Shown one piece after another: positions 45,879 to 64,000 of a DNA stretch of 64,000 nucleotides (position 1 is its first letter; each line of letters begins with the position of its first letter). Below the pieces are notes generated by a model that made no database searches, was not told the DNA's origin, and saw only the letters and a list, made by a program, of their open reading frames with translations. The position numbers and the translations under genes were made by a program. Origin of the DNA: Bacteroidales bacterium (GTDB taxonomy: Bacteria > Bacteroidota > Bacteroidia > Bacteroidales > UBA12170); assembly GCA_016744655.1 (NCBI GenBank), contig JADGDY010000001.1, positions 850 through 64,849 on the forward strand, written 5' to 3'.

Positions 45879-45889
45879 AAACAAAAGTG

Positions 45890-46883: not shown

Positions 46884-47035
46884 CCTGAACGAAAACTTTA
46901 CATTTACCCTGCGTCTCTCGCAAGAAAGCTTCGAGAACAAGGCTTGGTTTTTGTGAAAATCAAGGAGTTGACTTTTGTCAATGACTGTTTTTAGAAAAAG
47001 CATAACGCTTTATTGGAGTTTTCTGGCAGAGACTA
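46884..47035 (+). repeat. Interspersed MITE-like repeat, copy 2
   Basis: The body at 46907-47035 matches copy 1 (19500-19627) over nearly its whole length, with AGAAAGCTTCGAGAACAAGG, CAAGGAGTTGACTTT and AAAAAGCATAACGCTTTATT. The left end (GAACGAAAACTTT) is degenerate relative to copy 1 while the right end GGAGTTTTCTGGCAGAGACTA is well kept. It lies between the surface-protein gene and the first GH16 gene. Confidence 0.75.
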
Positions 47036-47051
47036 TTTAAAACCCATAATC

Positions 47052-48353
47052 ATGAATACACGTTATAAAATCAGCTTGATTTCAATATTGCTTACATTGA
47101 TATTTTTCTCTTGTAGTAAAGAGGAAGAATCAGATTTTACTGTCAATTTCAATACTGAATACTTGGATGATAATACTGTTGTTTTTTCAAATGCCTCCTC
47201 AGGAGAATACTATTCTTTGACTTGGGATTTTGGAAATGGAGACATTATTACCACCACTGATAAAAAAGAAACCTTTCAAATTTTCTATTCATTAAAAGGA
47301 GATTATCAAGTTAGTTTAAAAGGTTTGGATTATAGTGGTACAACTAAAACTAACTCGCAGACCCTGAGCATTAGCGAATCTGTGATTTCTGAACTAGAGC
47401 CTAGTTTTACTGCTGTTCCTAATGAAGGAAATCCAAATTATATCCTCCTCAGCAATACCACAGAGGGCGAATACGATTCTTTCAAATGGAAATATCGTGA
47501 CGAAATAGTGAATGATGAGAATGATTATTTGGCCTATTTCCCTTTGGCTGGTGATTATGAAATTGAACTTCAGGTAATCAGTGGAGAGGAAATGTTTTCT
47601 GAGCTTCAAATGATTACTATTGCTGAAGATGATCAAGGGAATCCAAATTTATTGTGGTCAGAAGAATTTAACTATACAGGATTACCTGATGCTAATATTT
47701 GGAATATGGAAACCGGCGGAGGAGGCTGGGGAAATAACGAGCTCCAGAATTATACCGACAGAGAAGACAATGCCAGTGTTGGTGGAGGTTACCTAACCAT
47801 TACAGCTAAAGAAGAGGTTTATGGTGGAAGAGATTATACTTCTGCTAGAATCACTACTCAGAATAAATTCGACTTTAAATATGGTAGAATAGAAGCCCGT
47901 ATCAAGCTACCTTATGGACAAGGTATTTGGCCTGCTTTCTGGATGTTGGGAGCGAATTTTAATTCTGTTGGATGGCCTTCTTGTGGTGAAATCGACATTA
48001 TGGAATTAGTTGGTGGCGACGATAGAGATAATGTTAGTCATTCAACTCTGCATTGGGATAATGCTGGTCAACATGCCTCTTATGGTGAATCATTTACATT
48101 AACGAATGGAATTTTTGCAGATGATTTCCACATATTTAGTGTGGAATGGGATGAGCAAGAAATTAAAGGATTTGTAGACGGTACACAGTTTTTTGTAGCT
48201 GATATAACACCAAGTGGTTTGAGTGAATTCCATGATAATTTCTTTCTCATTTTAAATGTTGCTGTTGGTGGTAATTGGCCTGGTTCCCCAAATGCCAGCA
48301 CTACCTTCCCTCAAACCATGCAAGTAGATTATATCAGAGTTTATAATAACTAG
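47052..48353 (+). CDS. GH16 laminarinase lipoprotein with PKD-like domains
   Basis: The 433-residue lipoprotein (cysteine at residue 21) has two PKD-like units at about residues 30-108 and 115-192, then a GH16 catalytic domain at about 200-433. The catalytic motif GEIDIMELVG gives nucleophile E313, D315 and acid/base E318; EIDIME is the form typical of beta-1,3-glucanases of the laminarinase group. GWGNNELQNYTDR and IKLPYGQGIWPAFWMLG are other family blocks. It should cut beta-1,3-glucan chains at the cell surface. I start it at 47052 because the signal peptide begins there; the frame open from 47013 only extends into the upstream repeat. Confidence 0.94.
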   Translation: MNTRYKISLISILLTLIFFSCSKEEESDFTVNFNTEYLDDNTVVFSNASSGEYYSLTWDFGNGDIITTTDKKETFQIFYSLKGDYQVSLKGLDYSGTTKTNSQTLSISESVISELEPSFTAVPNEGNPNYILLSNTTEGEYDSFKWKYRDEIVNDENDYLAYFPLAGDYEIELQVISGEEMFSELQMITIAEDDQGNPNLLWSEEFNYTGLPDANIWNMETGGGGWGNNELQNYTDREDNASVGGGYLTITAKEEVYGGRDYTSARITTQNKFDFKYGRIEARIKLPYGQGIWPAFWMLGANFNSVGWPSCGEIDIMELVGGDDRDNVSHSTLHWDNAGQHASYGESFTLTNGIFADDFHIFSVEWDEQEIKGFVDGTQFFVADITPSGLSEFHDNFFLILNVAVGGNWPGSPNASTTFPQTMQVDYIRVYNN

Positions 48354-48357
48354 CCTT

Positions 48358-49182
48358 ATGAAAATAGTAATAAATTTTCTGGTCATTATAAGTTTAGGAA
48401 TACTCATGACAAATTGCGATTCAAACCCAAAATCTCCCGCCACAAAAGAAGGGGAGTGGAAATTGGTTTGGCAAGATGACTTTAGCTATACCGGGCTTCC
48501 CGATTCCACAAAATGGGATTACGATACTGAAGGGAATTCTGCAGGTTGGGGAAATAATGAAGCACAACATTATACCAAATTGGATAAAAACAATGCTTGG
48601 GTAGAAAATGGGATTCTGAAAATTACAGCCAGAAAAGACAGTGTTGGAGGGAAACAGTTTTCTTCAGCACGATTGATGTCAAAAGCCAATTGGCAATACG
48701 GGAAAATCGAAGTAAGTGCAAAAGTACCACCTGCTCGTGGAACCTGGTCAGCTATATGGATGATGCCCGGAGGATGGTCTTTTAATGATGGCAATTGGCC
48801 AGACATTGGAGAAATCGACATTATGGAACATGTAGGTCACGATTTGGGAGTTATTCATGCTTCAGCCCATTCCAAAGACTATCAATGGCAAAAAAACACT
48901 CAAAAAACAGCTACTATCTTAAATGCTACAGCTCATGAGGAATTCCACTCTTATATCCTAGAATGGAGCCCTGAAGTATTAAAGTTCTATGTGGACAATC
49001 AGCTCTATTTAACTTATGAAAACGAAGGCCTTGGAGAATCAAAATGGCCCTACGATAAACCTTTTTATCTGATATTAAATGTTGCTATTGGTGGTGCATG
49101 GGGAGATATGAAAGGTATAGATGAACAAGCCTTCCCACAGACTATGGAAGTAGATTTTGTAAAAGTATATCAACAAGAATAA
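48358..49182 (+). CDS. GH16 laminarinase lipoprotein (single domain)
   Basis: The 274-residue lipoprotein (cysteine at residue 20) consists of a GH16 domain only. The catalytic motif GEIDIMEHVG supplies E152, D154 and E157. GWGNNEAQHYTKLDKNNAWV near residue 63 and PARGTWSAIWMMPGG near residue 125 are conserved subsite segments. It differs from the upstream GH16 by lacking PKD domains and by a different loop after the motif (HDLGVIHASAHS). It probably works with that enzyme as a second endo-beta-1,3-glucanase. The two genes are four bases apart. Confidence 0.95.
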   Translation: MKIVINFLVIISLGILMTNCDSNPKSPATKEGEWKLVWQDDFSYTGLPDSTKWDYDTEGNSAGWGNNEAQHYTKLDKNNAWVENGILKITARKDSVGGKQFSSARLMSKANWQYGKIEVSAKVPPARGTWSAIWMMPGGWSFNDGNWPDIGEIDIMEHVGHDLGVIHASAHSKDYQWQKNTQKTATILNATAHEEFHSYILEWSPEVLKFYVDNQLYLTYENEGLGESKWPYDKPFYLILNVAIGGAWGDMKGIDEQAFPQTMEVDFVKVYQQE

Positions 49183-49256: not shown

Positions 49257-50519
49257 ATGAAACAAGTATTTACATTTTTAGCTTTATTTATTGGCATCAT
49301 TACAGTGAATGCGCAATATATTTATAACGATTTTGATGATAATCAGAACGAAGTAGTTATGGGTTGGCCTAATGGTGCAACTACAGTAGCTAATCCTGAT
49401 GCCAGTGGTATTAATACCAGTGCAAACGTTGGTGAATGGGTAAGAAGTGGAGAACAATGGGCACATATGTATATGGAATTGAATGGAGCCATCGACTTTA
49501 CTACAGGTACAACTTTTGAATTAAAAGGTCACTTTCCAATTGCTTGTCAAACGCTATTAAAACTCGAATCAGCTGATGGAGCTTTTGTTGAAGTATCTGT
49601 GGATGTTACTACTACAGGAGAATGGGTACAATTAAGTTATGATTTCGCCGGTGCAGAATCTGGAATTTATAATAAAGTAGTCATCTTCTTCGATTTTGCA
49701 GTAAGCGCTGACAATACTTTCTATATAGATGATATTCAAGGACCAGCTTTTAATGATGCTCCTCCTCCAACACAAATTGACCTACCTATTAATTTCGATG
49801 ACGAGAATCTTAATTATGGTTTAATTGATTTTGGTGGAAATGCTTCATCAATTATTGTTGACCCAGAAAATACTGATAACAAAGTGGCACAATCTATAAA
49901 AACTGATGCTGCTGAATTATGGGCAGGAACTACTGTTGGTGGAAATGCTGGTTTTGCAAATCCTATACCTTTTGTTGAGGGTCAAACTTCTATGACAGTT
50001 TCTGTTTGGTCTCCTGAAGCTGGAATTCCAGTAAGATTAAAAGTAGAGGATGCTGGTGACCCAACTATGTCTGTTGAAACTGAAGCCATGACTACAGTAG
50101 CAGAAGCATGGGAAGTACTAACTTTCGACTTTAGCAATGAAGCAACTGGTACTGCAGCTATCAACTTCGATTATAACTATAATAAAATAAGTATTTTCTT
50201 CAACTTTGGAATCACTGGTGCCGAAGCTGGCGAACAAACTTACTATTGGGATAATGTTGAATTCCTAGAAGATGGAGTATCAATTAGCGAATTTAGCATA
50301 GAGGAATTCACAGTGTATCCTAACCCTGCAACAAGCTATATTAATCTTCCTACAGGAAGTAATGATATTAAAATCTATTCAATCTCAGGAACTATGGTTT
50401 CTGAATCTAGGTCATCTGATTTAAGTGTAGATGTTAGTGAACTTTCAAAGGGAGCATATTTCATTTATTCCCAAAATAATGATGGCAAAGTCTATCATTC
50501 AAAATTTATCAAGCAATAA
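49257..50519 (+). CDS. T9SS-secreted protein with two CBM-like beta-sandwich modules
   Basis: The 420-residue protein has a signal peptide (VFTFLALFIGIITVNAQ) and two related modules at about residues 20-165 and 175-345. Both resemble the 209-362 module of the lipoprotein at 43794; compare NPDASGINTSANVGEW, VVIFFDFAVSADNTFYIDDI and NFDDENLNYGLIDFGGNASS. A C-terminal type A sorting domain follows (EEFTVYPNPATSYINLP ... GAYFIYSQNNDGKVYHSKFI), directing it through the type IX system to the surface or outside. No catalytic residues are apparent, so it is more likely a glucan-binding scaffold than an enzyme. Confidence 0.87.
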   Translation: MKQVFTFLALFIGIITVNAQYIYNDFDDNQNEVVMGWPNGATTVANPDASGINTSANVGEWVRSGEQWAHMYMELNGAIDFTTGTTFELKGHFPIACQTLLKLESADGAFVEVSVDVTTTGEWVQLSYDFAGAESGIYNKVVIFFDFAVSADNTFYIDDIQGPAFNDAPPPTQIDLPINFDDENLNYGLIDFGGNASSIIVDPENTDNKVAQSIKTDAAELWAGTTVGGNAGFANPIPFVEGQTSMTVSVWSPEAGIPVRLKVEDAGDPTMSVETEAMTTVAEAWEVLTFDFSNEATGTAAINFDYNYNKISIFFNFGITGAEAGEQTYYWDNVEFLEDGVSISEFSIEEFTVYPNPATSYINLPTGSNDIKIYSISGTMVSESRSSDLSVDVSELSKGAYFIYSQNNDGKVYHSKFIKQ

Positions 50520-50541
50520 GGATGATTTGGTAATTATTTGA

Positions 50542-50563
50542 GGAGGGTGGGGGTTTTTCCTCC
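50542..50563 (+). terminator. Possible weak terminator after the T9SS protein
   Basis: GGAGG...CCTCC around a G/T-rich loop (GGTGGGGGTTTTT) lies 23 bases after the stop. The T-run is in the loop, so this is only a moderate candidate. Confidence 0.35.
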
Positions 50564-50576
50564 GCCCATTTTTCCC

Positions 50577-50650
50577 CAAGGAGTTGACTTTTGTCAATAA
50601 CTGTTTTCAGAAAAAGCATAACACTTTATCGGAGTTTTCTTGCAGAGAAT
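50577..50650 (+). repeat. Interspersed MITE-like repeat, copy 3 (partial)
   Basis: Only the right half of the element is present: CAAGGAGTTGACTTTTGTCA, CTGTTTTCAGAAAAAGCATA and GGAGTTTTCTTGCAGAGA are shared with copies 1 and 2. It lies between the T9SS-secreted protein and the phosphorylase gene. Confidence 0.75.
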
Positions 50651-50684
50651 AATTAGACATCAACCAAAAAATAATATAGTTTAA

Positions 50685-53600
50685 ATGAATAAGGATAGAA
50701 TTTATATTGGAAACCATGATGTTACTTCTACTCATAAAGAAGTAACTGGTCAGTTTGTGGAGTTTGAAGGTGAAAAATACTATCAAATCCAGAATTATAA
50801 TGAAATGACTGATTTCTTTATCAGTGTGGTGAGCGATTCTGACCATTGGATGTTTATTTCAAGCAATGGCTCTTTGTCTGCTGGACGAAAAGACAGAAAC
50901 AAAGCCCTATTTCCCTATTATACCGACGATAAAATACACGACTATAAAGGAATTACTGGAAGCAGCTCACACTTTCTTGTTGAGGCTAAAAGCTGCACAA
51001 AACTGTGGAATCCTTTCACAGAAGAATCAGAGAAGTTTTATTCCATCAGCCGAAATCTATACAAAAGTGTTTATGGCAACAGCATTATATTCGAAGAGCT
51101 CAATCACGATTTAGAGCTGAGCTTTCGTTACGGATGGTTTAATAGTGAGCAGTTTGGTTTTGTAAAAAAATCATCACTACATAACCTCTCAAATGATACT
51201 TTGAAAGTGAAAATGCTCGATGGTATAAAAAACATTCTTCCTTATGGTGTCGATTATAATTTTCAAAACGAATACAGTAATTTGCTCGATGCCTATAAAA
51301 AGAGTGAATTAATAAAAGGAAGCACTTTAGGTTTATATATGCTCAGTGCCATTCCTGTGGATAGAGCAGAGCCTAGCGAAGCATTAAAAACCACAGCGGT
51401 TTGGTCAAAAGGAGAATTTTCTAAGAGTAGCATCCTCATTTCCGATAAACAAGTAGAGCAGTTTATGCAAGGAATTGATATCAATCCTGAATATGATATT
51501 AGAGCCACAAGAGGAGCCTACTTTATATCATCAGAATTAGAACTAAATGCAAAGCAGAAAAACACTTGGTTAACAGTGGCTGAAATCAATTTGGATTCTA
51601 GTCAGCTTTCTAACCTTCAGCAATGGTTAGCCAATACTCAAGATATAGAACAACTCGTATTACAAGACATAGAAAAAGGAAGCAATAAGCTCAAGAAAAT
51701 GGTTTCTTATGCTGATGGTTTTCAGGTAACCAATACCGATTTGTGTTGCGTGCGTCACTACTCCAACACCATGTTTAACATCATGCGTGGAGGTGTTTTT
51801 ACCGATAACTATCAGGTAATAGCCAGAGATTTTAAGCAGTATTTATGGGAAATCAATAAGCTGCTTTTTAAAGAACACCAAAACTGGCTCGAGCAGATTC
51901 CTCAAAGCATCTCCTATATCGATTTACTTTCTGAAGTAAAAGAACTCAATAATTCCGATTTATTGAGGATTGTATACGAATACCTTCCTCTTACTTTTAG
52001 CCGCCGTCATGGTGACCCAAGTCGACCTTGGAATCAGTTTTCTGTGGAAACCAAGAATGAGGATGGCAGTGTAAAATATAACTACCAAGGCAATTGGCGC
52101 GATATCTTCCAGAACTGGGAAGCACTCTCGTATTCCTTCCCTGAATTTATAGAAGGCATCATCAGCAAGTTTGTAAATGCCTCAACCATTGATGGATATA
52201 ATCCTTACAGAATCATGCGCGATGGTATTGATTGGGAATCTCCAAATCCAGACGACCCTTGGGCATATATAGGATATTGGGGCGACCATCAAATTATTTA
52301 TCTTCAAAAATTACTCGAGCTGTCTAATAATTTCCACCCTGGAAAATTAGATGAAATGCTCACTAGCGAGATATTCACCTATGCTAATGTTCCTTATCAA
52401 ATAAAGCCTTACGAAGATATTGTTGCCGACCCAAAAGATACCGTAGTATTCAATAATGAATTGAATCAGCAGATAAATTCTGAAGTAGAATATTTAGGTG
52501 CCGATGCCAAATTATTGAAAACTAAATCTACATCTCAGATTTATAAAGTCAATTTAAGCGAGAAGATATTGGCCACTTTGCTATCAAAAATGAGTAATTT
52601 CATTCCAGAAGCAGGAATTTGGCTTAATACACAAAGACCGGAATGGAATGATGCCAATAATGCATTGGTAGGAAATGGAACCTCAATGGTGACCCTATAT
52701 CATTTAAGAAGATTTTTGAAGTTCTGGGGTCAATATTTTGAAAATTCGCAACATAAATCAGTTCTGGTTTCTGAAGAGATAGCCAAGGTATTCACTGAGA
52801 TATTTCAAACCCTTAAAGCAAGCCAATTCCTACTTGCTGATGGATTTAGCGATAAGAACAGAAAGGAAATCGCTGATGTCTTAGGAAAGATTCACAGCAA
52901 ATTCAGAGAAGAAATCTATCAATATTCATTCTCAGGAGAGAAGAAAGAATTATCCACTCAAGATTTAAAATCGTTTTGTGATTTGTCTATTTCATTTTTG
53001 GACCAAAGCATTGAGAAGAATAAACGAGAGGATGGTTTATTTCATGCATACAACCTCATTAGTTTCCATGAAGATTCTGTTTCCATCGGCAATCTATATG
53101 AGATGTTAGAAGGACAAGTGGCCATTCTCAATTCGGGATATTTATCAGCTGAAGAAAGCTTAGCTGTCCTCGATTCGCTAAAGAAGAGCGACATCTATCG
53201 AAAAGACCAATACAGCTATATGCTCTATCCTAACCGTGAACTTCCTCGGTTTATAGAAAAAAATAATATCCCAAGCCATTTAATGACTCAGTCGGAATTA
53301 TTGAAGAAATTGGTAGAGGATGGCGAAGTATCCATCATTAAATCTGACAATAGTAATAATTGCCATTTTAATGGAATATTTACCAATGCCGCTGCCCTAG
53401 AAAAAGGTTTAAACGAGTTAAGAAAAGGAAGCTATAGTCATTTGGTAGAAGAAGAAAAAGAGCAGATTCTTCAGATTTATGAAAGCATATTTAACCATAA
53501 GGCTTTTACTGGAAGGTCTGGCACTTTCTATGGTTACGAAGGTTTGGGTTCTATTTATTGGCATATGGTTTCAAAGCTATTATTGGCCACACAAGAAGTC

Positions 53601-54149
53601 TACCTCACAGCCCTAGAACACGGTGCTGATAAGGATATGCTAGGAAAATTAAAGAATCATTATTACGAAATTAAAGCGGGAATAGGATTATATAAATCGC
53701 CAAAATTATATGGTGCTTTCCCTACGGATGCCTATTCACACACTCCGCTAGATTCTGGCGTGAAACAACCAGGTTTAACAGGTCAAGTGAAGGAAGATTT
53801 TATCTCCAGATTTGGAGAAATGGGTTTGTTTATCGACGACGGGAGAATCGTTTTTGAACCTTCTTTACTCAATGATGAGGAAATCCTCCAAAAGCCTCAA
53901 AACTTCGAATACATTTCATTGGCTGGACAAACAGAAAACATTGAATTACAAAAGAATCAATTAGGATTTACATTCTGTCAAGTCCCTATTGTATATAGCT
54001 TCTCTAATGAGCAAAGCATCATTATTACTATGCAAAATGGAAATACTGAAAAGCTACAAAGCAGTGGTTTAAGTACAGAATTCAGTCAATCTATTTTCCA
54101 AAGAAATGGAGAAATAAAATTAGTAGAAATCACATTTATAAAAGAATAA
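50685..54149 (+). CDS. GH94-like glucan phosphorylase of the GH149/GH161 type (beta-1,3-oligoglucan phosphorylase candidate)
   Basis: The 1154-residue protein has no signal peptide and is cytoplasmic. It carries the inverting-phosphorylase layout: an N-terminal super-beta-sandwich, then an (alpha/alpha)6 barrel. Key blocks are FSRRHGDPSRPWNQFS, NYQGNWRDIFQNWEALS near residue 465 and RPEWNDANNALVGNG near residue 650. The EWND segment corresponds to the DWND acid region of GH94. At about 1150 residues it is far longer than cellobiose phosphorylase (about 810) and equals the beta-1,3-glucan phosphorylase families GH149 and GH161. I cannot tell these two apart without alignment. The expected reaction is phosphorolysis of beta-1,3-oligoglucans to glucose 1-phosphate. 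A GH17 gene begins two bases after the stop. Confidence 0.82.
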   Translation: MNKDRIYIGNHDVTSTHKEVTGQFVEFEGEKYYQIQNYNEMTDFFISVVSDSDHWMFISSNGSLSAGRKDRNKALFPYYTDDKIHDYKGITGSSSHFLVEAKSCTKLWNPFTEESEKFYSISRNLYKSVYGNSIIFEELNHDLELSFRYGWFNSEQFGFVKKSSLHNLSNDTLKVKMLDGIKNILPYGVDYNFQNEYSNLLDAYKKSELIKGSTLGLYMLSAIPVDRAEPSEALKTTAVWSKGEFSKSSILISDKQVEQFMQGIDINPEYDIRATRGAYFISSELELNAKQKNTWLTVAEINLDSSQLSNLQQWLANTQDIEQLVLQDIEKGSNKLKKMVSYADGFQVTNTDLCCVRHYSNTMFNIMRGGVFTDNYQVIARDFKQYLWEINKLLFKEHQNWLEQIPQSISYIDLLSEVKELNNSDLLRIVYEYLPLTFSRRHGDPSRPWNQFSVETKNEDGSVKYNYQGNWRDIFQNWEALSYSFPEFIEGIISKFVNASTIDGYNPYRIMRDGIDWESPNPDDPWAYIGYWGDHQIIYLQKLLELSNNFHPGKLDEMLTSEIFTYANVPYQIKPYEDIVADPKDTVVFNNELNQQINSEVEYLGADAKLLKTKSTSQIYKVNLSEKILATLLSKMSNFIPEAGIWLNTQRPEWNDANNALVGNGTSMVTLYHLRRFLKFWGQYFENSQHKSVLVSEEIAKVFTEIFQTLKASQFLLADGFSDKNRKEIADVLGKIHSKFREEIYQYSFSGEKKELSTQDLKSFCDLSISFLDQSIEKNKREDGLFHAYNLISFHEDSVSIGNLYEMLEGQVAILNSGYLSAEESLAVLDSLKKSDIYRKDQYSYMLYPNRELPRFIEKNNIPSHLMTQSELLKKLVEDGEVSIIKSDNSNNCHFNGIFTNAAALEKGLNELRKGSYSHLVEEEKEQILQIYESIFNHKAFTGRSGTFYGYEGLGSIYWHMVSKLLLATQEVYLTALEHGADKDMLGKLKNHYYEIKAGIGLYKSPKLYGAFPTDAYSHTPLDSGVKQPGLTGQVKEDFISRFGEMGLFIDDGRIVFEPSLLNDEEILQKPQNFEYISLAGQTENIELQKNQLGFTFCQVPIVYSFSNEQSIIITMQNGNTEKLQSSGLSTEFSQSIFQRNGEIKLVEITFIKE

Positions 54150-54150
54150 A

Positions 54151-55035
54151 ATGTCGTTTAACAGCAAAAAAATATGGGCATTAACAGGTTTTAATGCTTT
54201 CAATAAAACACAGGACGAAATAGTTTCTCTTTTTCATGAATCTTTAAAAGAGCCCATGCATGGCTTATGTTTTAGCCCCTACGAAAACGAACAAAAGCCA
54301 GGGGAGCAACTATCAGAAGAGCAGGTGAGAAAACGATTGAAAATCATTCAACCTCATACCAATTGGCTAAGGTCTTTTTCTTGTACCGAAGGAAATGAAT
54401 TGATACCTGAAATAGCTCATCAAATGGGAATGAAAACCCTAGTTGGCGCTTGGTTAGGAAAAGACAAAGAGATAAACGAGCTTGAGATTTCTAGATTGAT
54501 AAAACTGGCCAAAGATGGTCATGTGGATATTGCAGTGGTTGGAAACGAAGTCTTGTATAGAGGAGACTTAACAGAAACAGAATTACTAGATTATATCAAT
54601 CGAGTAAAAAAGGAAATTCCAGAAGTTTCAGTGGGGTATGTGGATGCGTATTACGAGTTTGAAAACCATCCTCAAATTACTGAAGCTTGCGATGTGATTT
54701 TAGCCAACTGCTATCCATTTTGGGAAGGATGTAGCATAGATTATTCCTTGCTCTATATGAAAGATATGTATGCTAGAGCAAAGAAAGTTGCCAATGGTAA
54801 AAAGGTAATCATCACCGAAACAGGATGGCCAAGCCAAGGAGAAAAGCTGCACGGAGCCCAGCCAGGTGAATTCAATGCCATGACATATTTCCTCAATGCG
54901 CAAGCTTGGTCAAAAGAAGAAGATATAGAAATGTTCTACTTCTCCTCTTTCGATGAATCTTGGAAAGAAGATTCAGAAGGCGATGTGGGACCATTTTGGG
55001 GATTATGGAATTCAAATGAAAAATTGAAATATTAA
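54151..55035 (+). CDS. GH17 glycoside hydrolase lacking a signal peptide (cytoplasmic candidate)
   Basis: The 294-residue protein is a GH17 (beta/alpha)8 enzyme. The acid/base glutamate is E133 in VVGNEVLYRG and the nucleophile E223 in IITETGWPSQG, both exact family motifs. CYPFWEG and FYFSSFDESWK form the substrate cleft. There is no signal peptide or lipobox at the start (MSFNSKKIWALTGFN), so the enzyme should be cytoplasmic, unlike the next gene. It follows the phosphorylase by two bases. A role as endo-beta-1,3-glucanase or transglycosylase that sizes oligosaccharides for the phosphorylase is inferred. Confidence 0.9.
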   Translation: MSFNSKKIWALTGFNAFNKTQDEIVSLFHESLKEPMHGLCFSPYENEQKPGEQLSEEQVRKRLKIIQPHTNWLRSFSCTEGNELIPEIAHQMGMKTLVGAWLGKDKEINELEISRLIKLAKDGHVDIAVVGNEVLYRGDLTETELLDYINRVKKEIPEVSVGYVDAYYEFENHPQITEACDVILANCYPFWEGCSIDYSLLYMKDMYARAKKVANGKKVIITETGWPSQGEKLHGAQPGEFNAMTYFLNAQAWSKEEDIEMFYFSSFDESWKEDSEGDVGPFWGLWNSNEKLKY

Positions 55036-55046
55036 GGTAAGTGCTA

Positions 55047-55105
55047 ATGCGGATTTGTAATCCGCATAAACAATCATGATACAAAATCGGATTGCAAATC
55101 CGATT
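55047..55105. repeat. Two tandem perfect 9-bp-stem hairpins
   Basis: ATGCGGATT-TGT-AATCCGCAT (55047-55067) and AATCGGATT-GCA-AATCCGATT (55085-55105) are two closely related perfect hairpins with 3-base loops. They share GGATT/AATCC and lie between the two GH17 genes, where they resemble REP-type intergenic repeats and may tune mRNA stability or termination. Confidence 0.75.
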
Positions 55106-55150
55106 GAGCAAAGCAGACTGAAGAAAAATTAAAATACAAAAACCAAACAA

Positions 55151-56245
55151 ATGAAAAAGGCAAAAACAGGAGGAATGATGAGGATGCAAATGATACTAAT
55201 ATTCAGCTTAGCCATGCTTTTTTCATGCCAGAACGATTTAAAGAAAAACGAACAACAAATGAGCGAATCAAAGCACTCAAACGAAATATCAAAACAAAAC
55301 AAAGAATCCCTTTTAATGGGAACTTCAAAAGCCATATGTTATTCTGGTTTTAGAAGCGGTCAACATCCCGATAGAGGAGATGGAGCTGTGAATCCTAGCT
55401 ATGAGGAAACTCTGGAAGATTTAAAAATGCTATCGGAGGATGCCGATTTTCATCTCATTCGAGTTTATGATAGTAGAGAGAATTCTGAACTGGTTCTTAA
55501 GGTGATTCAAGAAAACAAACTTAATATTAAAGTGATGTTGGGCATTTGGCTTCAGGCCGAAATGAGTAATCATGAAACTTGTTCTTGGCTAATAGAACCT
55601 ATTCCACAAGCTGAATTAGAACAAAATAAACAATTGAATTTATCCGAAATTGAAAGAGCCATCAAGCTATCACACAAATACAAGGATATCATTATTGCAG
55701 TAAATGTAGGAAATGAAGCCTTGGTAGATTGGAACGACCACAAAGTGGCCACAGATACGATAATCTCTTATGTGAAAAGAGTGAAGAAATTGATTCCTCA
55801 AAAAGTAACCGTCGCCGATAATTATAAGTGGTGGGCCGACCATGGAGCAGAACTAGCTAAAGCCGTAGATTTTGTTTCCCTACATATTTATCCAGTTTGG
55901 GAAGGTAAATACATTAACGAAGGACTTTCTTATACCATTGAAAACTATAATGAAGTGAGACAAGCGATTCCAAATGCGCCGATAGCTATTACTGAAGCTG
56001 GTTGGGCCACTATCGCCACTGAGTTTGGTGAGCGTGCCAGCCAAGAAAAGCAATGGCAGTATTATCAAGAATTAATGAACTGGTCAAAAGAAATGAATAT
56101 CACCACCTTTTGGTTTGAAGCCTTTGATGAGGATTGGAAAGGCGAGCCAGGAAGAATGGATGGAGCTGAAAAACACTGGGGTTTATATACCGTGGATAGG
56201 AAACCAAAGATTACGATGCAACATTTACTCACTGACAAAAACTAA
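55151..56245 (+). CDS. GH17 lipoprotein
   Basis: The 364-residue protein is an exported lipoprotein; the signal core IFSLAMLFSC ends at cysteine 26. Alternative starts lie at the internal methionines of MMRMQM. The GH17 domain has acid/base E189 in VNVGNEALVDWN and nucleophile E282 in IAITEAGWAT, with HIYPVWEG and WFEAFDEDWKGEPG as cleft segments. It probably trims beta-1,3-glucan oligomers in the periplasm or at the outer membrane. It is preceded by the hairpin pair at 55047-55105 and followed by an MFS symporter. Confidence 0.9.
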   Translation: MKKAKTGGMMRMQMILIFSLAMLFSCQNDLKKNEQQMSESKHSNEISKQNKESLLMGTSKAICYSGFRSGQHPDRGDGAVNPSYEETLEDLKMLSEDADFHLIRVYDSRENSELVLKVIQENKLNIKVMLGIWLQAEMSNHETCSWLIEPIPQAELEQNKQLNLSEIERAIKLSHKYKDIIIAVNVGNEALVDWNDHKVATDTIISYVKRVKKLIPQKVTVADNYKWWADHGAELAKAVDFVSLHIYPVWEGKYINEGLSYTIENYNEVRQAIPNAPIAITEAGWATIATEFGERASQEKQWQYYQELMNWSKEMNITTFWFEAFDEDWKGEPGRMDGAEKHWGLYTVDRKPKITMQHLLTDKN

Positions 56246-56287
56246 TAACCAAAATAACAAAACTATTTAGCACTAAAAATCACAGAT

Positions 56288-57727
56288 ATGACACCATACA
56301 AAACAGCCCCCGAAGACAAAGTTCCCTTTGGACAAAAAGCAGCTTATGGAGCAGGACAATTGACTATAAACCTTTATCCGGCAGCATTAGGTGTTTTTAT
56401 GTTCTACCTTATCTATGGTTTTAAAATGGACCCGGTTTTAGCTGGTTTGTTATCTGCTTTACCAAAATTCTTCGATGCCTTGATTGACCCAATTATGGGT
56501 TATGTTTCAGACAATACTCGTTCGCGTTGGGGACGTAGAAAACCATATATCCTAATTGGAAGTATCATCACAGGAATTGCTTTTATGATTTTATGGCAGT
56601 TATATCCAGAAAATTCACAAACTTATAATTTCTTTTACTTTTTAAGCCTGTCTATTATATTCTTTATCTCATTTACAGTATATTCCACCCCTTTTATAGG
56701 TTTGGGATACGAAATGACTTCTGATTATAATGAACGAACAAGGTTAATGGCAACAGGTCAGTTCTTCGGTCAAATGGCCTGGATGATTGCTCCTTGGTTT
56801 TGGATTTTAATTGGTAATTCTGACTTGTTTTTTGAGGAATCAACAACGGGTGTTCGCGTCTTATCCATATGGGTTGGTGGAGCAAGTATTATACTAGGAG
56901 CTTTGCCAGCATTGTTTTGTAAAGAGATGAAACTACCAGAAGAAGCAGAGGGAGAGTCTAAGCTTGACATGAAAAATTTGGCTGAAAACTTGAAAGAATT
57001 CTGGGCAGCAATAGTTCAAACTTTAACCTGTAAGCCTTTTTTGAAATTATGTGGGGCTACCTTTTTAATCTTCAATGGATTTCAAACTATTGCACAGTTT
57101 TCCTACTTCATTATTCTTTACTATTTGTTCGATGGAAGCATCAGTGCCGCAGGTACTTGGCCTCCATGGTTTAGTACAGTAAATGCAGCAGCAACAGCAT
57201 TTTTAATCATTCCAATAGTCACTAAGCTATCCACTAAAGTGGGTAAGAAAAATGCTTTCATTATTTCAACTTTGCTTTCCATTGTGGGGTATGTATTAAA
57301 ATGGTGGTGTTTCGATCCAGCAAATCCATGGTTGATGTTTATACCATTACCTTTGATCTCATTTGGTATTGGTGGTTTATTCACACTTATGATGTCAATG
57401 ACCGCCGATGTTTGCGATTTAGATGAATTGGAAAATGGATCTCGACGTGAAGGAATGTTTGGAGCCGTTTATTGGTTGATGGTGAAAATGGGAACAGCAC
57501 TGGCATTTTTAGTGAGTGGCGTAGTATTAAAAATGGTTGGTTTCGATCAAAATGTAGAGATTCAAACTTCCGAAGCTCTTGTTAATCTAAGATTGGCAGA
57601 TATCATCATTCCAATAGTTTTTGCCTTGATTGCCATATGGCTGATGATGAAATATAGCATTTCTGAGAAACGAGCTCATGAAATTCGTGAAGCTTTAATT
57701 GAAAGAAGAGGAAAAGTAAAGCGTTAG
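56288..57727 (+). CDS. GPH-type MFS sugar symporter
   Basis: The 479-residue protein has about 12 helices and belongs to the glycoside-pentoside-hexuronide:cation symporter group. The N-terminal block FGQKAAYGAGQLTINL, the loop motif DPIMGYVSDNTRSRWGRRKPY and the second-half CDLDELENGSRREGMFGAVYW are characteristic of this group. It would carry beta-gluco-oligosaccharides or disaccharides across the inner membrane. It lies between the GH17 lipoprotein and the GH30 gene, and a second carrier of the same group is at 60454. An intergenic palindrome follows. Confidence 0.9.
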   Translation: MTPYKTAPEDKVPFGQKAAYGAGQLTINLYPAALGVFMFYLIYGFKMDPVLAGLLSALPKFFDALIDPIMGYVSDNTRSRWGRRKPYILIGSIITGIAFMILWQLYPENSQTYNFFYFLSLSIIFFISFTVYSTPFIGLGYEMTSDYNERTRLMATGQFFGQMAWMIAPWFWILIGNSDLFFEESTTGVRVLSIWVGGASIILGALPALFCKEMKLPEEAEGESKLDMKNLAENLKEFWAAIVQTLTCKPFLKLCGATFLIFNGFQTIAQFSYFIILYYLFDGSISAAGTWPPWFSTVNAAATAFLIIPIVTKLSTKVGKKNAFIISTLLSIVGYVLKWWCFDPANPWLMFIPLPLISFGIGGLFTLMMSMTADVCDLDELENGSRREGMFGAVYWLMVKMGTALAFLVSGVVLKMVGFDQNVEIQTSEALVNLRLADIIIPIVFALIAIWLMMKYSISEKRAHEIREALIERRGKVKR

Positions 57728-57802
57728 AAAATGTAGGGCAAACTCACACTTTGAGTTTATGTTTAGAAATCAATATGTATTTTAATAAAAAGAAAAACTA
57801 TC

Positions 57803-57865
57803 CACAGATTCCGCTGATTTTTATAAACAAGGGTCAGCAAAGCTGATCATTGTTTATAATCTGTG
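57803..57865. repeat. Nested palindromic intergenic element before the GH30 gene
   Basis: An outer stem CACAGATT...AATCTGTG (57803-57810 with 57858-57865) encloses an inner stem ATAAACAA...TTGTTTAT with TCAGC-AAA-GCTGA at its tip. It sits in the 210-base gap between the MFS and GH30 genes, where a terminator or mRNA-processing site would fit. Confidence 0.55.
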
Positions 57866-57937
57866 TTAATTTGCGATAATCCGCGGACAAAATTAAAGTG
57901 TGTCTGCCCTGATTAAAAAATGACCTAAAATAGAATT

Positions 57938-59428
57938 ATGAAAAATATAGTCCAATTTATTTCCCTATCAATACTAGTCGTTTTGATGAGTTGTAGTGCA
58001 AAAAAAGACCAGCTAAATATTGAAGTATTTGAAACTTCAGCCAGCGGAAATCAACTGAAGCAGTTGACAGATTTCGAAATAACAGATAAAGCAGTAGAAA
58101 TACAGATATTACCTGAGGAGAAATTCCAAACCATTACCGGATTTGGAGGTTCTTTTACCGAATCTTCTGCCTATCTTTTAAATCAGCTGAGCGAAGAAAA
58201 TAGAGAGTTTGTTTTACAAGCCTACTTTGGAAACGAAGGCGCTAAATACTCATTAACTCGTACACACATCAACTCTTGCGACTTCTCACTATCTAATTAT
58301 TCTTACGCTCCTCTAAAAGGCGATAAAGAACTCAAAAGCTTTTCTATTGAAGAAGACCGAGACGATATCATCCCCATGATTAAAGAAGCTATGGCTATTT
58401 CTGAGGATGGTTTTAAAATCATTTCTTCTCCTTGGACAGCACCACCTTGGATGAAAGACAATGACAGTTATGTGGGTGGAAAATTGTTGCCAGAGTATTA
58501 CGAGTCTTGGGCATTATTCTTTTCAAAATACTTGGATGCTTATAAAAAAGAAGGTATTGATATTTGGGGACTCACAGTAGAAAACGAGCCATTGGGAAAC
58601 GGAAACAATTGGGAGAGTATGCATTTTTCTCCTGAGGAAATGATGGATTTTGTAAATCATCATATGGGACCAAAACTCAAAGCTGATGGGCATGATGTAA
58701 AAATATTAGCCTACGATCAAAATAGAGGACATGAACTGGAAGAATGGGCCGAAATCATCTATAAAGATGAAACTTCAGCTGAATATTTCGATGGCTTTGC
58801 TATTCATTGGTATGCCAGCACATTTAACTTTTTCCCAAAATCATTAAACCTTACTCACGAATTAGCACCCGACAAATATTTAATCCAGTCGGAAGCTTGT
58901 GTAGATGCTGAAGTTCCACATTGGAAAGACGATAAATGGTATTGGTCGAAAGAAGCCACTGACTGGGGATGGGATTGGGCTTCAGAAGAACAAAAACATC
59001 ATCACCCTAAATATGTTCCAGTTTATCGTTATGCCAGAGATATCATTGGATGCTTGAACAATCATGTAGATGGTTGGGTAGATTGGAACATGGTTTTAGA
59101 CAGACAAGGAGGTCCCAATTGGTTTAAAAATTGGTGTACAGCCCCAGTAATAGTTGACCCTGATAAAGATGAGGTTTACTTAACTCCTCTATATTATACC
59201 ATGGCTCATTTCAGCAAATTTATTAGACCAAATGCCAAGCGAATTGGATTTAATAATCCTGATGACTCTATTATGATTACAGCAGCTCAAAATCCAGATA
59301 GTAGCATAGCAGTTGTCGTATTAAATACAAACGATGAGGCCAAGAGCATAAACTTATCTTTAGGTGAATCCTCAAGGTCAGTAAGTATCAAAGGGCAAGC
59401 TTTACAAACAATTATAATAACCAAATAG
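57938..59428 (+). CDS. GH30 glycoside hydrolase lipoprotein (beta-1,6-glucanase or glucosylceramidase-like)
   Basis: The 496-residue lipoprotein (cysteine at residue 19, LMSC) has a GH30 (beta/alpha)8 domain plus a beta-sandwich side domain. FQTITGFGGSFTESSAYLL is the family start. The acid/base is E217 in LTVENEPLGNG, and the nucleophile E319 in YLIQSEACVDA. SPWTAPPWMKDN is a conserved cleft loop. In beta-glucan PULs GH30 enzymes usually remove beta-1,6 branches of laminarin. The tail ends with a short beta-strand (VSIKGQALQTIIITK) typical of the side domain. The GH-A lipoprotein follows within 11 bases. Confidence 0.93.
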   Translation: MKNIVQFISLSILVVLMSCSAKKDQLNIEVFETSASGNQLKQLTDFEITDKAVEIQILPEEKFQTITGFGGSFTESSAYLLNQLSEENREFVLQAYFGNEGAKYSLTRTHINSCDFSLSNYSYAPLKGDKELKSFSIEEDRDDIIPMIKEAMAISEDGFKIISSPWTAPPWMKDNDSYVGGKLLPEYYESWALFFSKYLDAYKKEGIDIWGLTVENEPLGNGNNWESMHFSPEEMMDFVNHHMGPKLKADGHDVKILAYDQNRGHELEEWAEIIYKDETSAEYFDGFAIHWYASTFNFFPKSLNLTHELAPDKYLIQSEACVDAEVPHWKDDKWYWSKEATDWGWDWASEEQKHHHPKYVPVYRYARDIIGCLNNHVDGWVDWNMVLDRQGGPNWFKNWCTAPVIVDPDKDEVYLTPLYYTMAHFSKFIRPNAKRIGFNNPDDSIMITAAQNPDSSIAVVVLNTNDEAKSINLSLGESSRSVSIKGQALQTIIITK

Positions 59429-59438
59429 AAAGTAAATA

Positions 59439-60446
59439 ATGAAAAATATAGTCTTGGTTTTTCTTGTTCTCTTATTGGTATCTTGTCGTCAAGAAGTAAA
59501 GAAAGAGGAGGTTCAATTATCTGGGAATAAGATATTGATTAATGGTCAGCCCTATCTCATCAAAGGAATTTGCTACCATCCAGTTCCAAAGGGAAGGGAT
59601 AGTAGAGATTTTTCAAGCCTGTCGCAAGACCTAGTTTTAATGAATGAAGCCGGAATCAATACCATCAGACTTTATTCTCCTATTGATGATGTAATGGTTT
59701 TAAACAAAATTCATAAAGCTGGTTTAAAAGTCATTATTGGTTTTGGTTATAATCAAGATGGTTTTTTCGATATTCTTTCGGGTAGTTTCATCAATTATAT
59801 CAATAAATATAAAGATCATCCTGCTATTCTGTTTTGGGAGTTGGGAAACGAATACAATTATCATCCCCAATGGTTCGAAGGTGATATTGTTAATTGGTAT
59901 TATTCATTAAATTCCGCAGCCAAACTTATTCATCAGAATGATTTAACTCATCCTGTGGCTACTGCTCATGGTGAATTACCAGATTCCCTAGCATTGGCAA
60001 CAAGTCCTGATATTGATGTTTGGGGCATGAATGTATATCGTTGGGATGACCCAACAAGCATATTTGAAGAATGGAAAGCCATTAGTGATAAACCCATGTA
60101 TCTTTCAGAAGCAGGAAGTGACAGTTATATGACCATTTCCAAATTGGGGTATGAAGAAGGCGAGAACGAACAAGCTCAAGCTGATGCCGTGGAGAGTATT
60201 CTGAAAGCAACTTTCCAAAACCAAGATATTTGTTCTGGTGTGACATTATTTGCGTTTAACGATGAGTTATGGAAAGCTGGAAACAATAACCAATACGATA
60301 TTGGAGGATGGGCACCAAACAGCACTGGAGTTCCTTATGACGATACACCCAATGAAGAATATTGGGGTATTGTGGATATTAAGAGAAATAAAAAAGAAGC
60401 ATTTTTTATAGTAAAAGAGAGTTATTTGAGTCAAACGAAAAAGTAA
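59439..60446 (+). CDS. Clan GH-A glycoside hydrolase lipoprotein, exact family uncertain
   Basis: The 335-residue lipoprotein (cysteine at residue 16, LVSC) is a TIM-barrel enzyme. KILINGQPYLIKGICYHP is the usual opening of GH2/GH5-like barrels. The acid/base is probably E138 in FWELGNEYN and the nucleophile E224 in MYLSEAGSDSY. It resembles GH2 C-terminal barrels, GH5 and the beta-1,3-glucan families GH72 and GH158, but has no attached domains. I cannot assign the family by eye. Between GH30 and an MFS carrier it probably acts on beta-glucan oligosaccharides in the periplasm. The MFS gene begins seven bases after it. Confidence 0.8.
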   Translation: MKNIVLVFLVLLLVSCRQEVKKEEVQLSGNKILINGQPYLIKGICYHPVPKGRDSRDFSSLSQDLVLMNEAGINTIRLYSPIDDVMVLNKIHKAGLKVIIGFGYNQDGFFDILSGSFINYINKYKDHPAILFWELGNEYNYHPQWFEGDIVNWYYSLNSAAKLIHQNDLTHPVATAHGELPDSLALATSPDIDVWGMNVYRWDDPTSIFEEWKAISDKPMYLSEAGSDSYMTISKLGYEEGENEQAQADAVESILKATFQNQDICSGVTLFAFNDELWKAGNNNQYDIGGWAPNSTGVPYDDTPNEEYWGIVDIKRNKKEAFFIVKESYLSQTKK

Positions 60447-60453
60447 GAATAGC

Positions 60454-61797
60454 ATGAGAATGAAACTATCACTAAAAGAAAAAATAGGTTATGGATTAGG
60501 AGATACCGCATCCCATTTTGTCTGGGATATGGTGGGTTTTTGGATACTCATTTTCTATACAGACACCTTTGGGATTTCTGCAGCAGCAGCTGGTACTATC
60601 ATGTTAATAGCTCGAGTTTGGGACATGATTAGCGACCCTCTTATGGGAATTATTGCCGATAGAACCAATACCCGATGGGGAAAGTTCCGTCCCTATATTC
60701 TTTGGATGGCAGTTCCTTATAGTGTCTTGGCGGTTTTGACTTTTTCAACTCCGGACCTGGGTCCAACTGGTAAGGTGATTTATGCCGGGGTCACTTATTT
60801 CCTCCTCATGACAGTTTTTACAGCCATTAACCTCCCCTATTCTTCTTTGGGCGCGGTTATGACATCAGATTCTTATGAACGTGCTGGATTAAACTCCTAT
60901 CGCTTTATTTTTGCCTTTATAGGTCAACTGGTAGTCACAGGATCTGCTTTATCACTTGCACTATATTTCGGAAATGGCGATACGGCTTTAGGTTACCAGT
61001 ATACATTAACTTTGTTTGCCATCATTAGTTTTGCTTTATTCATGATTACTTTCAAAACTACAAAGGAGAGAGTTAAACCACCCAAAGAGCAAAAGCAAAA
61101 CCTATTATTGGATATTAAAAACCTCTTCAAGAATAAACCTTGGGTCACCTTATTTTTCGTGGGTATTATTTCCTTTGTCATGTTTGCCATGCAAAACCTC
61201 ACCATCGCCTACTATTTTAAGTATTATATTGGCAGAGAATCTGATGTCCAGTTGTTTAACGTCATAGGAACCATTGCCCTAATTCTTGTCATTCCATTAT
61301 CTAAACCCTTGGCAAAAAAGTTTGGGAAACGAAATGTATTTTTGGCTAGTTCCTTGATTTCCGGTATGTTCTTTATGCTGCTTTATATTCCGGGCAATGA
61401 TAATATCATCAGCATATATATTCTAAATATTCTAGCTAAGATGACTTATGCCCCTGCAGTGCCCTTATTATGGACTATGTTAGCTGATGCGGCGGATTAT
61501 TCCGAATGGAAAACAGGAAGGAGATCTACAGGTTTAACCTTTTCGGCAGCTACCTTTGCCCAAAAAGCTGGTTGGGGAATTGGTGGAGCTTTAGCCGGTT
61601 GGATATTAGCTTTTTATCAATTTGAACCTAATATGGTTCAATCTGAAACCTCTCTTATGGGAATTAAATTAATGATTTCTGTATTTCCAGGAATCCTCTA
61701 TATGTCTACTTCTATCTTACTGTTTTTCTATAGCATCGATCATAAAACCTGTTTAATGATGCAAAAAGACTTAGAGGCAAGAAGAGCTAAAGAATAA
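60454..61797 (+). CDS. Second GPH-type MFS sugar symporter
   Basis: The 447-residue protein has about 12 helices and the GPH-group motifs KIGYGLGDTASHFVWDMV, DPLMGIIADRTNTRWGKFRPY and ADAADYSEWKTGRRSTGLTF. These match melibiose/glucuronide-type symporters more closely than the first carrier of the window does. It is followed by the GH94 phosphorylase, so import of a disaccharide (for example laminaribiose or cellobiose) for phosphorolysis is a reasonable guess. It follows the GH-A lipoprotein by seven bases. The start may be the first or second methionine of MRMKLS. Confidence 0.9.
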   Translation: MRMKLSLKEKIGYGLGDTASHFVWDMVGFWILIFYTDTFGISAAAAGTIMLIARVWDMISDPLMGIIADRTNTRWGKFRPYILWMAVPYSVLAVLTFSTPDLGPTGKVIYAGVTYFLLMTVFTAINLPYSSLGAVMTSDSYERAGLNSYRFIFAFIGQLVVTGSALSLALYFGNGDTALGYQYTLTLFAIISFALFMITFKTTKERVKPPKEQKQNLLLDIKNLFKNKPWVTLFFVGIISFVMFAMQNLTIAYYFKYYIGRESDVQLFNVIGTIALILVIPLSKPLAKKFGKRNVFLASSLISGMFFMLLYIPGNDNIISIYILNILAKMTYAPAVPLLWTMLADAADYSEWKTGRRSTGLTFSAATFAQKAGWGIGGALAGWILAFYQFEPNMVQSETSLMGIKLMISVFPGILYMSTSILLFFYSIDHKTCLMMQKDLEARRAKE

Positions 61798-61990
61798 ATC
61801 CAGTAAATGACTAAAACATCCATTCTGTTTACCTAATAATGCCTTGTCACAGGCTTCAAATATGAGTTTTGTTAACAAAACCATTGAAATTATATATTAT
61901 TCATCTTTGCCAATAACAATAATTTCAGCAGTTATTCTTAAATTTGATGCCAAGCAATTGCGTGTATAAATACTTATTGGAGAATAACGG

Positions 61991-64000
61991 ATGAAGAAGA
62001 AGACAATTGGGGGTAAAATAGCAAGGTTAGAACAAGGGCCATTGTGGTCTTTTTGTGATGATAATAGTGGCGCTTTTATAGCCCCTGAAGCCGATTATTT
62101 ATCAAGATTGTATTTTCCTTTAATGAATTCAGCAGGAATGAAATCTTGGGTGAGTCCCGATTTAAAAGGTGATATTTGTTCTTCTTTTGATCATTATCTC
62201 AATCCACCAGTTGTAACCGAAGAGATTAGTAAAACCGTATCCTCTAGAAATTGTTGGATTACTATCAAAGGAGAAAAACCTTGGTCGGCAACTGGGGTTT
62301 CTGCTTGGCAAAGAGCCAATAAATGGGCTCAAAATCCTGATGAATCTGTGATTAATGCACAGCCGGGAGTATTTTCTATGACTAGAAAAAACAAAGATTT
62401 AAAACTGTCTTGTTCTATGAAGGTATTTATACCTTCCTCAGAAGACAAGGTAGAGCTCATCCACATTGAAGTGGAAAATAACAACACCGTTTCCAAAACA
62501 TTAGATCTAACTTATTCCCTTCCTCTTTTTGGTCGTCATGCTGATCATGTACGCGATCACCGACAAGTCACCACCATGTTTCAAAAAGTATTCAGAGAAG
62601 ATCATGGGGTAAGAATTAAAGCCAATATTGTTCATGATGAGCAAGGCCATTCTCCAAATCATATGAGCTATTTAGTTTTAGGAGCTGATGATGTGGGAGG
62701 CCAACCAGAACAGGTTTGGTTAAGAATGGAAGATTTTATTGGCGAAGGGGGCAGTTTAGATAATCCTGAGGCCGTATATAAAAAGTTGAATGCTCCTCAA
62801 TATTCCGAAGGCGAAGCCGATGGTTTTGAAGCTATAGGTGCCTTTCGATTTTCTGAAATAGAGTTGCCTGCAAATAAAAAAGCCAGTTTCATCATCATAC
62901 AAGGGATTAGTGAAGATGAAAAGGTAGCTCGAAAATGGCTTGAAAAATATGGCAATGAGAAAAAAATATGTGAAATATTAGAGAATACCAAAAATTATTG
63001 GTTGCGTTATACCAATAGAATTCGTTTCTCAACCTCAGATCCTAATTTTGATAACTGGACCAAATGGGTCATATATCAAGTAAAAGCTAATCAAGAGCTG
63101 GGTAATTCTTACTTGCCAGATTTCAGTTATGGTAGAGGTGGAAGAGGATGGCGAGACCTATGGCAAGATCTATTGTCAGTTTTATTGGTAGATCCAATTA
63201 GTGCCAGAAGCGAAATCATCAATAGCTTTAAAGGCATTAGAATGGATGGCTCTAATGCTACTATTATAGGATCTGAACATGGTGAATTCTTGGCAGATAG
63301 AAATAATTTGGCCCGTTCGTGGAGCGACCATGGAGCTTGGCCGGTTTTTGTGGTCAATTTCTACATGCATCAAACTGGAGATTTTGATTTACTATTAAAA
63401 GATTTGAGCTATTGGAAAGATCAATATACACATCGTAGTAAAGGAATTGACAGCCAATGGGATATTTCCCAAGGTAATAAGCAGTTGGATAATGAAAATG
63501 AGGTGTATTTAGGTAGTGTATTAGAACACTTATTACTTCAGCAATTGTCAGGATTCTACTCTGTGGGCGAACACAATATTTTGCAATTGGAAGGTGCCGA
63601 TTGGAATGATACCTACGATATGGCTCGAGAGAGAGGTGAAACGGTAGGGTTCCATGCTTTCTATGGAAACAATTTACGTTTAATGGCTCAATGGCTCAAT
63701 CAACTTGAACAACAAGGGGTTTCGGAGCTGAAATTAGCCAAAGAGATACTTCCTTTGTTAGATAGTTTAGAAGAACAAAAAAGCCTAGACTATACACAGA
63801 TTAAAGATAAAGACCGATGTGTTTTCGACTATTTTTCTTCTGTTTCTCATGAATTAAGTGGGGATAAAACAGCCATTAATATTTCAGATTTAAGAAAAGA
63901 TTTAGAAGCCAAATCAAAGCATATATTTGAACATATTCAGGATAAAGAATGGAAGCAATATGCTGATGATGCTGGCTTTTACAATGGGCATTACGATAAT
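61991..64000 (+). CDS. GH94 glycoside phosphorylase, truncated by the right edge
   Basis: An uninterrupted frame of 670 codons runs from the ATG at 61991 off the window. The protein has no signal peptide. Its N-terminal beta-sandwich opens with PLWSFCDDNSGAFIAPEADY. The (alpha/alpha)6 barrel contains FSYGRGGRGWRDLWQDLLSV near residue 377 and the catalytic-acid motif LEGADWNDTYDMARERGE near residue 533; ADWND is the GH94 hallmark. The family splits beta-linked gluco-disaccharides with phosphate into glucose 1-phosphate and a sugar. Cellobiose, laminaribiose and cyclic-glucan members exist; the PUL context favours a beta-1,3-linked substrate. With a normal family length near 800 residues, roughly 130 codons would be missing. 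Confidence 0.88.
   Translation, partial: MKKKTIGGKIARLEQGPLWSFCDDNSGAFIAPEADYLSRLYFPLMNSAGMKSWVSPDLKGDICSSFDHYLNPPVVTEEISKTVSSRNCWITIKGEKPWSATGVSAWQRANKWAQNPDESVINAQPGVFSMTRKNKDLKLSCSMKVFIPSSEDKVELIHIEVENNNTVSKTLDLTYSLPLFGRHADHVRDHRQVTTMFQKVFREDHGVRIKANIVHDEQGHSPNHMSYLVLGADDVGGQPEQVWLRMEDFIGEGGSLDNPEAVYKKLNAPQYSEGEADGFEAIGAFRFSEIELPANKKASFIIIQGISEDEKVARKWLEKYGNEKKICEILENTKNYWLRYTNRIRFSTSDPNFDNWTKWVIYQVKANQELGNSYLPDFSYGRGGRGWRDLWQDLLSVLLVDPISARSEIINSFKGIRMDGSNATIIGSEHGEFLADRNNLARSWSDHGAWPVFVVNFYMHQTGDFDLLLKDLSYWKDQYTHRSKGIDSQWDISQGNKQLDNENEVYLGSVLEHLLLQQLSGFYSVGEHNILQLEGADWNDTYDMARERGETVGFHAFYGNNLRLMAQWLNQLEQQGVSELKLAKEILPLLDSLEEQKSLDYTQIKDKDRCVFDYFSSVSHELSGDKTAINISDLRKDLEAKSKHIFEHIQDKEWKQYADDAGFYNGHYDN

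Follow-up and report, generated by a model that had tools for sequence, protein, structure and literature searches.

A laminarin utilisation locus of a Bacteroidales bacterium with two phosphorylases, GH149 and laminaribiose-type GH94

Few pools of carbon that turn over in the sea are as large as laminarin. The steps that complete its breakdown inside the cell have been studied less than those at the cell surface. This report concerns a polysaccharide utilisation locus (PUL) of a Bacteroidales bacterium, contained in a stretch of 64,000 nucleotides (the window; bases 850–64849 of contig 34 in an assembly of 5.2 Mb and 273 contigs). The locus encodes two phosphorylases from different glycoside hydrolase (GH) families, one gene starting at position 50685 and the other at 61991. 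Why should a single laminarin locus carry both? The enzymes may divide their substrates by chain length or may be substitutes for each other, and such a locus is a natural test between the two. A preliminary description suggested that they could work in series, the first on oligomers and the second on disaccharides. The presence of two phosphorylases has been confirmed; this interpretation is partly supported.

Two phosphorylases from different families

The 50685 product had been called GH149/GH161-like, and the first of these names stands. The protein matches the NCBIfam equivalog model NF058639 (GH149_beta_1_3) along almost all of its length at 1682.7 bits, where the cut-off is 1150. Its alignment with the GH149 enzyme Pro_7066 (PDB 6HQ6; 1275.7 bits) runs from end to end. 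GH161 was rejected, with 45–47 bits to the GH161 structures 9QQK and 9H8V versus 1276 to GH149. The catalytic positions of clan GH-Q are kept (WRD, EWND and GYEGLGSIYWH in the alignment with 6HQ6); the RD, WND and Glu/His residues of the phosphate and −1 sites of Pro_7066 have been described (PMC6771811). The enzyme is a GH149 β-1,3-glucan phosphorylase, with a substrate predicted from its sequence. Characterised GH149 enzymes phosphorolyse chains with a degree of polymerisation (DP) of 2 or more, including laminaribiose, and degrade laminaritriose to glucose (PMC6484121). In the literature, chain-length preference differs between the GH149 enzymes EgP1 and Pro_7066.

The gene of the separate GH94 enzyme is cut by the window end. 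In full (L003:4841–7621) it encodes 926 residues and would end at window coordinate 64771. Over this complete form, the protein gives 728 bits to the laminaribiose phosphorylase (LBP) PsLBP (PDB 6GGY), with 39% identity across residues 19–888 (870 residues). Both proteins have the motifs GRGWRDLWQD, R(M/I)DG(S/T)NATI, ADRNN, DHGAWP and ADWND; their alignment is nearly gapless, and the residues of the β-hairpin ‘gate’ were not located in it. Cellobiose-, chitobiose- and cyclic-glucan-type identities were rejected on scores and motifs: cyclic glucan synthase gives 73 bits, cellobiose phosphorylase (CBP) 47 and chitobiose phosphorylase 28, and cellobiose-type enzymes are 20% identical, with the subgroup motifs missing. 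In a GH94 tree covering LBP and CBP types as its characterised activities, the gene falls on the LBP (β-1,3) side of a 100/100 split from CBP-type sequences. Taken together, tree, scores and motifs do not place it with the cellobiose- or cyclic-glucan-specific enzymes, the outcome that the preliminary description had named as a refutation. It is nested among Bacteroidota genes, joining those of its congeners G002 and G005 with 100/100 support, and its tree neighbours stand beside GH158, GH16 and SusCD genes, i.e. in β-1,3-glucan loci. From this we infer, with good reason, specificity for laminaribiose. LBPs of GH94 act on DP2 only (PMC6484121).

Further GH94 genes were seen in other places. 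A cellobiose-phosphorylase-type GH94 adjoins a GH3 gene elsewhere in the window genome, G000 (L150:11521–13950, G000:C192), and in G002 (L148:4892–7312, G002:C24), where it shares the contig with the laminarin PUL. Another locus (L023) holds cellobiose-type and laminaribiose-type GH94 within one cluster. In a Cryomorphaceae metagenome-assembled genome (MAG), a laminaribiose-type GH94 is broken into five matching segments that lie in different frames (L042:10001–12604), reflecting a pseudogene or assembly errors.

Neither phosphorylase of the window has a hydrophobic N-terminus or a lipobox, in agreement with the preliminary description; this absence of a signal is the basis for placing both in the cytoplasm. 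With GH149 acting on DP2 and above and GH94 on DP2, either enzyme could use laminaribiose when both are present. At a probability of roughly two in three, we therefore read the locus as a GH149-type laminarin PUL with an added 3′ GH94–ribokinase pair, GH149 serving oligomers and GH94 laminaribiose, with an overlap at the disaccharide.

Substrates, order of flux and co-regulation in the following scheme are deduced from what can be seen directly, namely families, catalytic motifs, subclades, absent signal peptides, synteny and selection. Laminarin would be cut and debranched by surface and periplasmic GH16, GH17 and GH30 lipoproteins, and the oligomers carried inwards via SusCD and two GPH-family symporters. 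In the cytoplasm, GH149 would strip glucose units from β-1,3-oligomers as glucose 1-phosphate. GH94 would specifically use laminaribiose, either imported as such or left by GH149 and a cytoplasmic GH17. It would speed up the removal of the end product or scavenge it, and would not be an indispensable second step. Glucose 1-phosphate would enter metabolism via phosphoglucomutase, genes of which type were found in the genome, with no expenditure of ATP. A kinase would still be needed for the free glucose that remains at the end of each chain; the earlier claim of glucose 1-phosphate ‘without ATP’ holds for the glucose 1-phosphate residues only.

Several points weigh against this reading. No characterised LBP is nearer than PsLBP, which shares only 39% identity and sits on another branch within the LBP side. 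A gap of 193 bp separates GH94 from the second symporter; it is poorly conserved with G002, no conserved promoter was found in it, and co-transcription of GH94 with the PUL is unproven. By family model, the 3′ partner of GH94 is a ribokinase and no obvious glucose kinase; a PF02685 glucokinase was not found in the incomplete genome, where ROK-type kinases were not searched for. Lastly, the enzyme activities assigned at the locus are predictions from sequence.

Apparent exchange between GH149 and GH94

The whole locus is syntenic in the congener G002, with identities of 84% for GH94 and 74% for GH149. Between the two genomes, both phosphorylases show strong purifying selection, with a ratio of non-synonymous to synonymous substitution (dN/dS) of about 0.05 at dS >1.8. 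In another genome (G572), the same gene order runs from SusC through the second symporter and is followed by unrelated genes, with no GH94 or ribokinase; the GH94–ribokinase pair is thus a 3′-end addition in the window's genus. A ribokinase follows GH94 in the window contig and in G002, and in no other GH94 locus. Within the genus, some species have GH149 only (G001, G004, G006), one has GH94 only (G005), and two have both.

Outside the genus, the two families occupy one position. Across 17 loci with LBP-type GH94, the gene directly upstream is GH158 in 8 and a sugar-porter-family MFS transporter in 6; a GPH symporter is found there only in two exceptions, the window and G002. GH158 also lies directly upstream of GH149 in 9 GH149 loci, usually behind the same porter, and the porter itself in 3 more; GH158 was identified by a score of 324 bits to 9ORO (L040). 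On the porter tree, phosphorylase type has to change eight times. Well-supported branches make at least five of these changes unavoidable, and eight or fewer suffice for 136 of 500 random relabellings. The GH158 tree needs three such changes; joining all GH94-linked GH158 in one clade, as one origin would require, was rejected by the approximately unbiased test (p 0.0054). In this limited sample, consisting mostly of MAGs, GH149 and LBP-type GH94 look like alternatives in one sugar-porter/GH158/phosphorylase cassette and not like obligatory serial partners. A broader proposal would be that, across Bacteroidota, the two are interchangeable in a cassette of importer, endoglucanase and phosphorylase, repeatedly swapped behind the same porter, and that the window's genus combines both and divides phosphorolysis by chain length. 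We put this forward tentatively, as a possibility with somewhat more against it than for it. If true, the type of phosphorylase may tell import of oligomers from import of disaccharides.

A porter gene of the same family was also observed in G002 (L105:17415–18977), between the Por-secreted protein and GH149; it is absent at the corresponding place in the window (50519–50685). It is most closely related to the porter in the locus of G005 that has GH94 only.

Recurrent exchange at one slot, together with the mixed gene content of the genus, would fit simple redundancy, with GH94 a recent acquisition and the window caught in a transitional state holding both. Such a state is not fleeting, given the strong purifying selection on both genes at this divergence, and we regard this explanation as unlikely.

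The strict series would have GH149 limited to longer oligomers and stopping at laminaribiose, so that GH94 alone completes degradation. An analogous proposal exists for tandem GH161 and GH94 genes, where GH161 is unable to cut laminaribiose (PMC6484121), and the variation between EgP1 and Pro_7066 leaves room for such a limit within GH149. Against this, characterised GH149 enzymes take laminaritriose down to glucose; since they also cleave laminaribiose, a strict split between oligomers and disaccharide is not needed. Nor does either enzyme need the other. In samples of 393 genomes from the order and 395 from the phylum, GH149 is present in 47 and 70, respectively (12–18%), so phosphorolytic laminarin loci are common, and LBP-type GH94 is rare (9 and 3; 1–2%). 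As many as 45 of the 47 GH149 genomes of the order lack LBP-type GH94, and LBP-type loci occur elsewhere with no GH149. Among 25 genomes with LBP-type GH94 searched for GH149, only G000 and G002 have the two together. General co-occurrence was rejected, as GH149 is found in 0 of 22 LBP genomes outside the genus; with 2–4 expected against 0 seen, and many genomes being incomplete MAGs, true avoidance is not proven. The strict series is accordingly improbable. Of the series proposed at the outset, what survives is its overlapping form, in enzymes that normally replace each other.

A division by linkage or terminus instead of length is slightly more improbable. Here, GH94 would act on another disaccharide of the same polymer, such as gentiobiose or a mannitol-capped end fragment. 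Branch-derived products would be supplied by the GH30 and clan GH-A enzymes of the PUL, and GH94 belongs to a distinct Bacteroidota clade at the modest identity to characterised LBP given above. Yet its active-site motifs are those of PsLBP, its relatives sit with GH158 and GH16 β-1,3-endoglucanases, and no glycoside phosphorylase was known for β-1,6 linkages according to a 2022 review (PMC8950772). That one or both phosphorylases build intracellular β-1,3-glucan from glucose 1-phosphate is very hard to credit: phosphorolysis is reversible (PMC6484121), but the genes lie alongside those of importers and endoglucanases, in a SusCD PUL that serves degradation.

Gene content of the locus

The remaining genes (Table 1) bear out the earlier assignment to a laminarin-type PUL with two GH16, two GH17 (one signal-less), GH30, SusC and SusD. 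Lipoprotein-type signals are present on both GH16 proteins, the 55151 GH17, GH30 and the 59439 glycosidase.

Table 1. Genes of the laminarin locus in window coordinates; every locus gene from SusC to the window end lies on the forward strand.
Feature	Position	Strand	Basis
Hybrid-type regulator, Reg_prop/Y_Y_Y propeller and LuxR-type helix-turn-helix	36102–38984	+	Pfam; kept upstream of SusC in G002 (synteny in L106)
SusC-like TonB-dependent receptor	39251–42280	+	Pfam Plug/CarbopepD_reg_2
SusD-like protein	42292–43776	+	Pfam SusD_RagB
Two PKD-containing lipoproteins (694 and 313 aa), probably surface glycan-binding	43794–46828	+	Pfam PKD, lipobox, position after SusD (for function)
GH16 lipoprotein (GH16a) with PKD domains, probable endo-β-1,3-glucanase	47013–48353	+	Pfam, lipobox
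GH16 lipoprotein (GH16b)	48358–49182	+	Pfam, lipobox
Secreted protein with Por secretion-system C-terminal sorting domain	49257–50519	+	Pfam Por_Secre_tail
GH149 β-1,3-oligoglucan phosphorylase, 1154 aa, no signal peptide	50685–54149	+	NCBIfam, PDB 6HQ6, N-terminus
GH17, no signal peptide; putative cytoplasmic β-1,3-glucan hydrolase or transglycosylase	54151–55035	+	Pfam GH17; PDB 4WTP (110 bits); N-terminus
GH17 lipoprotein, relative of Formosa FbGH17A (6FCG)	55151–56245	+	Structure match, lipobox
First GPH-family sugar symporter (MFS_2), putative inner-membrane oligosaccharide importer	56288–57727	+	Pfam
GH30 (GH30_1-like) lipoprotein, probable β-1,6 debranching exo-glucosidase	57938–59428	+	Pfam, PDB; role by analogy with FbGH30 (PMC6246565)
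Clan GH-A lipoprotein glycosidase, 335 aa	59439–60446	+	Pfam Glyco_hydro_2_C (41 bits)
Second GPH-family sugar symporter	60454–61797	+	Pfam; also kept in GH149 PULs without GH94
GH94, laminaribiose-phosphorylase-type, first 669 of 926 residues	61991–64000	+	Pfam, structure match, tree, motifs
Ribokinase, 10 bp after GH94	L003:7632–8543, beyond window		Family model

The signal-less GH17 gene starts 1 nt after GH149. Just before GH149, a strong terminator-like hairpin (50545–50567) has nine pairs, seven of them G-C, and a T-rich tail; it suggests partial termination between the surface part of the PUL and its cytoplasmic part. A scan for consensus promoters gave no more sites than shuffled sequence.

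For the 59439 gene, a GH158 identity was rejected, with 34–35 bits to GH158 and GH2 structures. The lipoprotein has no good match to a GH family model, is kept (59–74%) in several GH149 loci, and may represent one of the ‘GH0’ genes seen in laminarin PULs. The PKD lipoproteins contain a domain of about 150 residues outside Pfam coverage (GTW..GSLGVGPGQGD..WW..CFFDD..F, with conserved W, C and G). The 694-aa protein has two copies of it and the 313-aa protein a diverged version; related stretches occur in Flavobacteriales laminaribiose-phosphorylase loci.

GH3 is absent within the PUL; one GH3 gene lies about 27 kb from SusC (9888–12098, reverse strand) and four more elsewhere in the genome. 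The statement that known β-glucan PULs mostly finish with GH3 was too strong, since GH3 stands beside GH149 in some loci and is absent in others; in the described laminarin PULs with GH149 it is frequently missing or an extra. Also outside the PUL, a gene at 13549–17046 (reverse strand) encodes a protein of 1165 residues with no Pfam match.

Comparison with known systems

Both enzyme types are known, and GH149 is common in the described laminarin PULs of Bacteroidota (PMC5827456, PMC10108472, PMC13188888); the pair within one laminarin locus is rare. A literature search, with most subscription papers outside its coverage, found neither GH149 with LBP-type GH94 in one PUL nor their exchange at the same slot. 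Since the parts were already known, the gain is a refinement and not a new system; recurrent exchange would provide a sequence-based handle on the size of oligomer that each transporter delivers.

GH149 with GH16, GH17, GH30 and SusCD constitutes the ‘variant 1’ laminarin PUL (PMC5827456, PMC6246565, PMC10108472), and the locus has all of these. It resembles the Formosa-type ‘variant 1’ PULs of marine Bacteroidetes in its SusCD, GH16, GH17, GH30, MFS importers and cytoplasmic GH149; it differs in the 3′ LBP-type GH94 and ribokinase, and in having no GH17–MFS fusion.

The proposal that two phosphorylase families, GH161 and GH94, work in series on β-1,3-oligomers dates from 2019 (PMC6484121). 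The Gram-positive GH94–GH161 tandem loci of that study likewise combine two families proposed to act successively. Their genes are adjacent and accompanied by ABC transporters, and the oligomer enzyme GH161 cannot cut laminaribiose (PMC6484121). In the window, by contrast, GH149 belongs to a SusCD PUL and is separated from GH94 by about 7.8 kb that hold other genes, which sets the locus apart from the tandem type. Finally, loci with a sugar-porter MFS, GH158 and LBP-type GH94 (L023, L024, L027, L031–L033, L040, L041) have GH94 of the same subclade in β-1,3-glucan PULs; these are devoid of GH149, whereas in the window GH94 stands behind a GPH symporter, with no GH158, in a locus that has GH149 as well.

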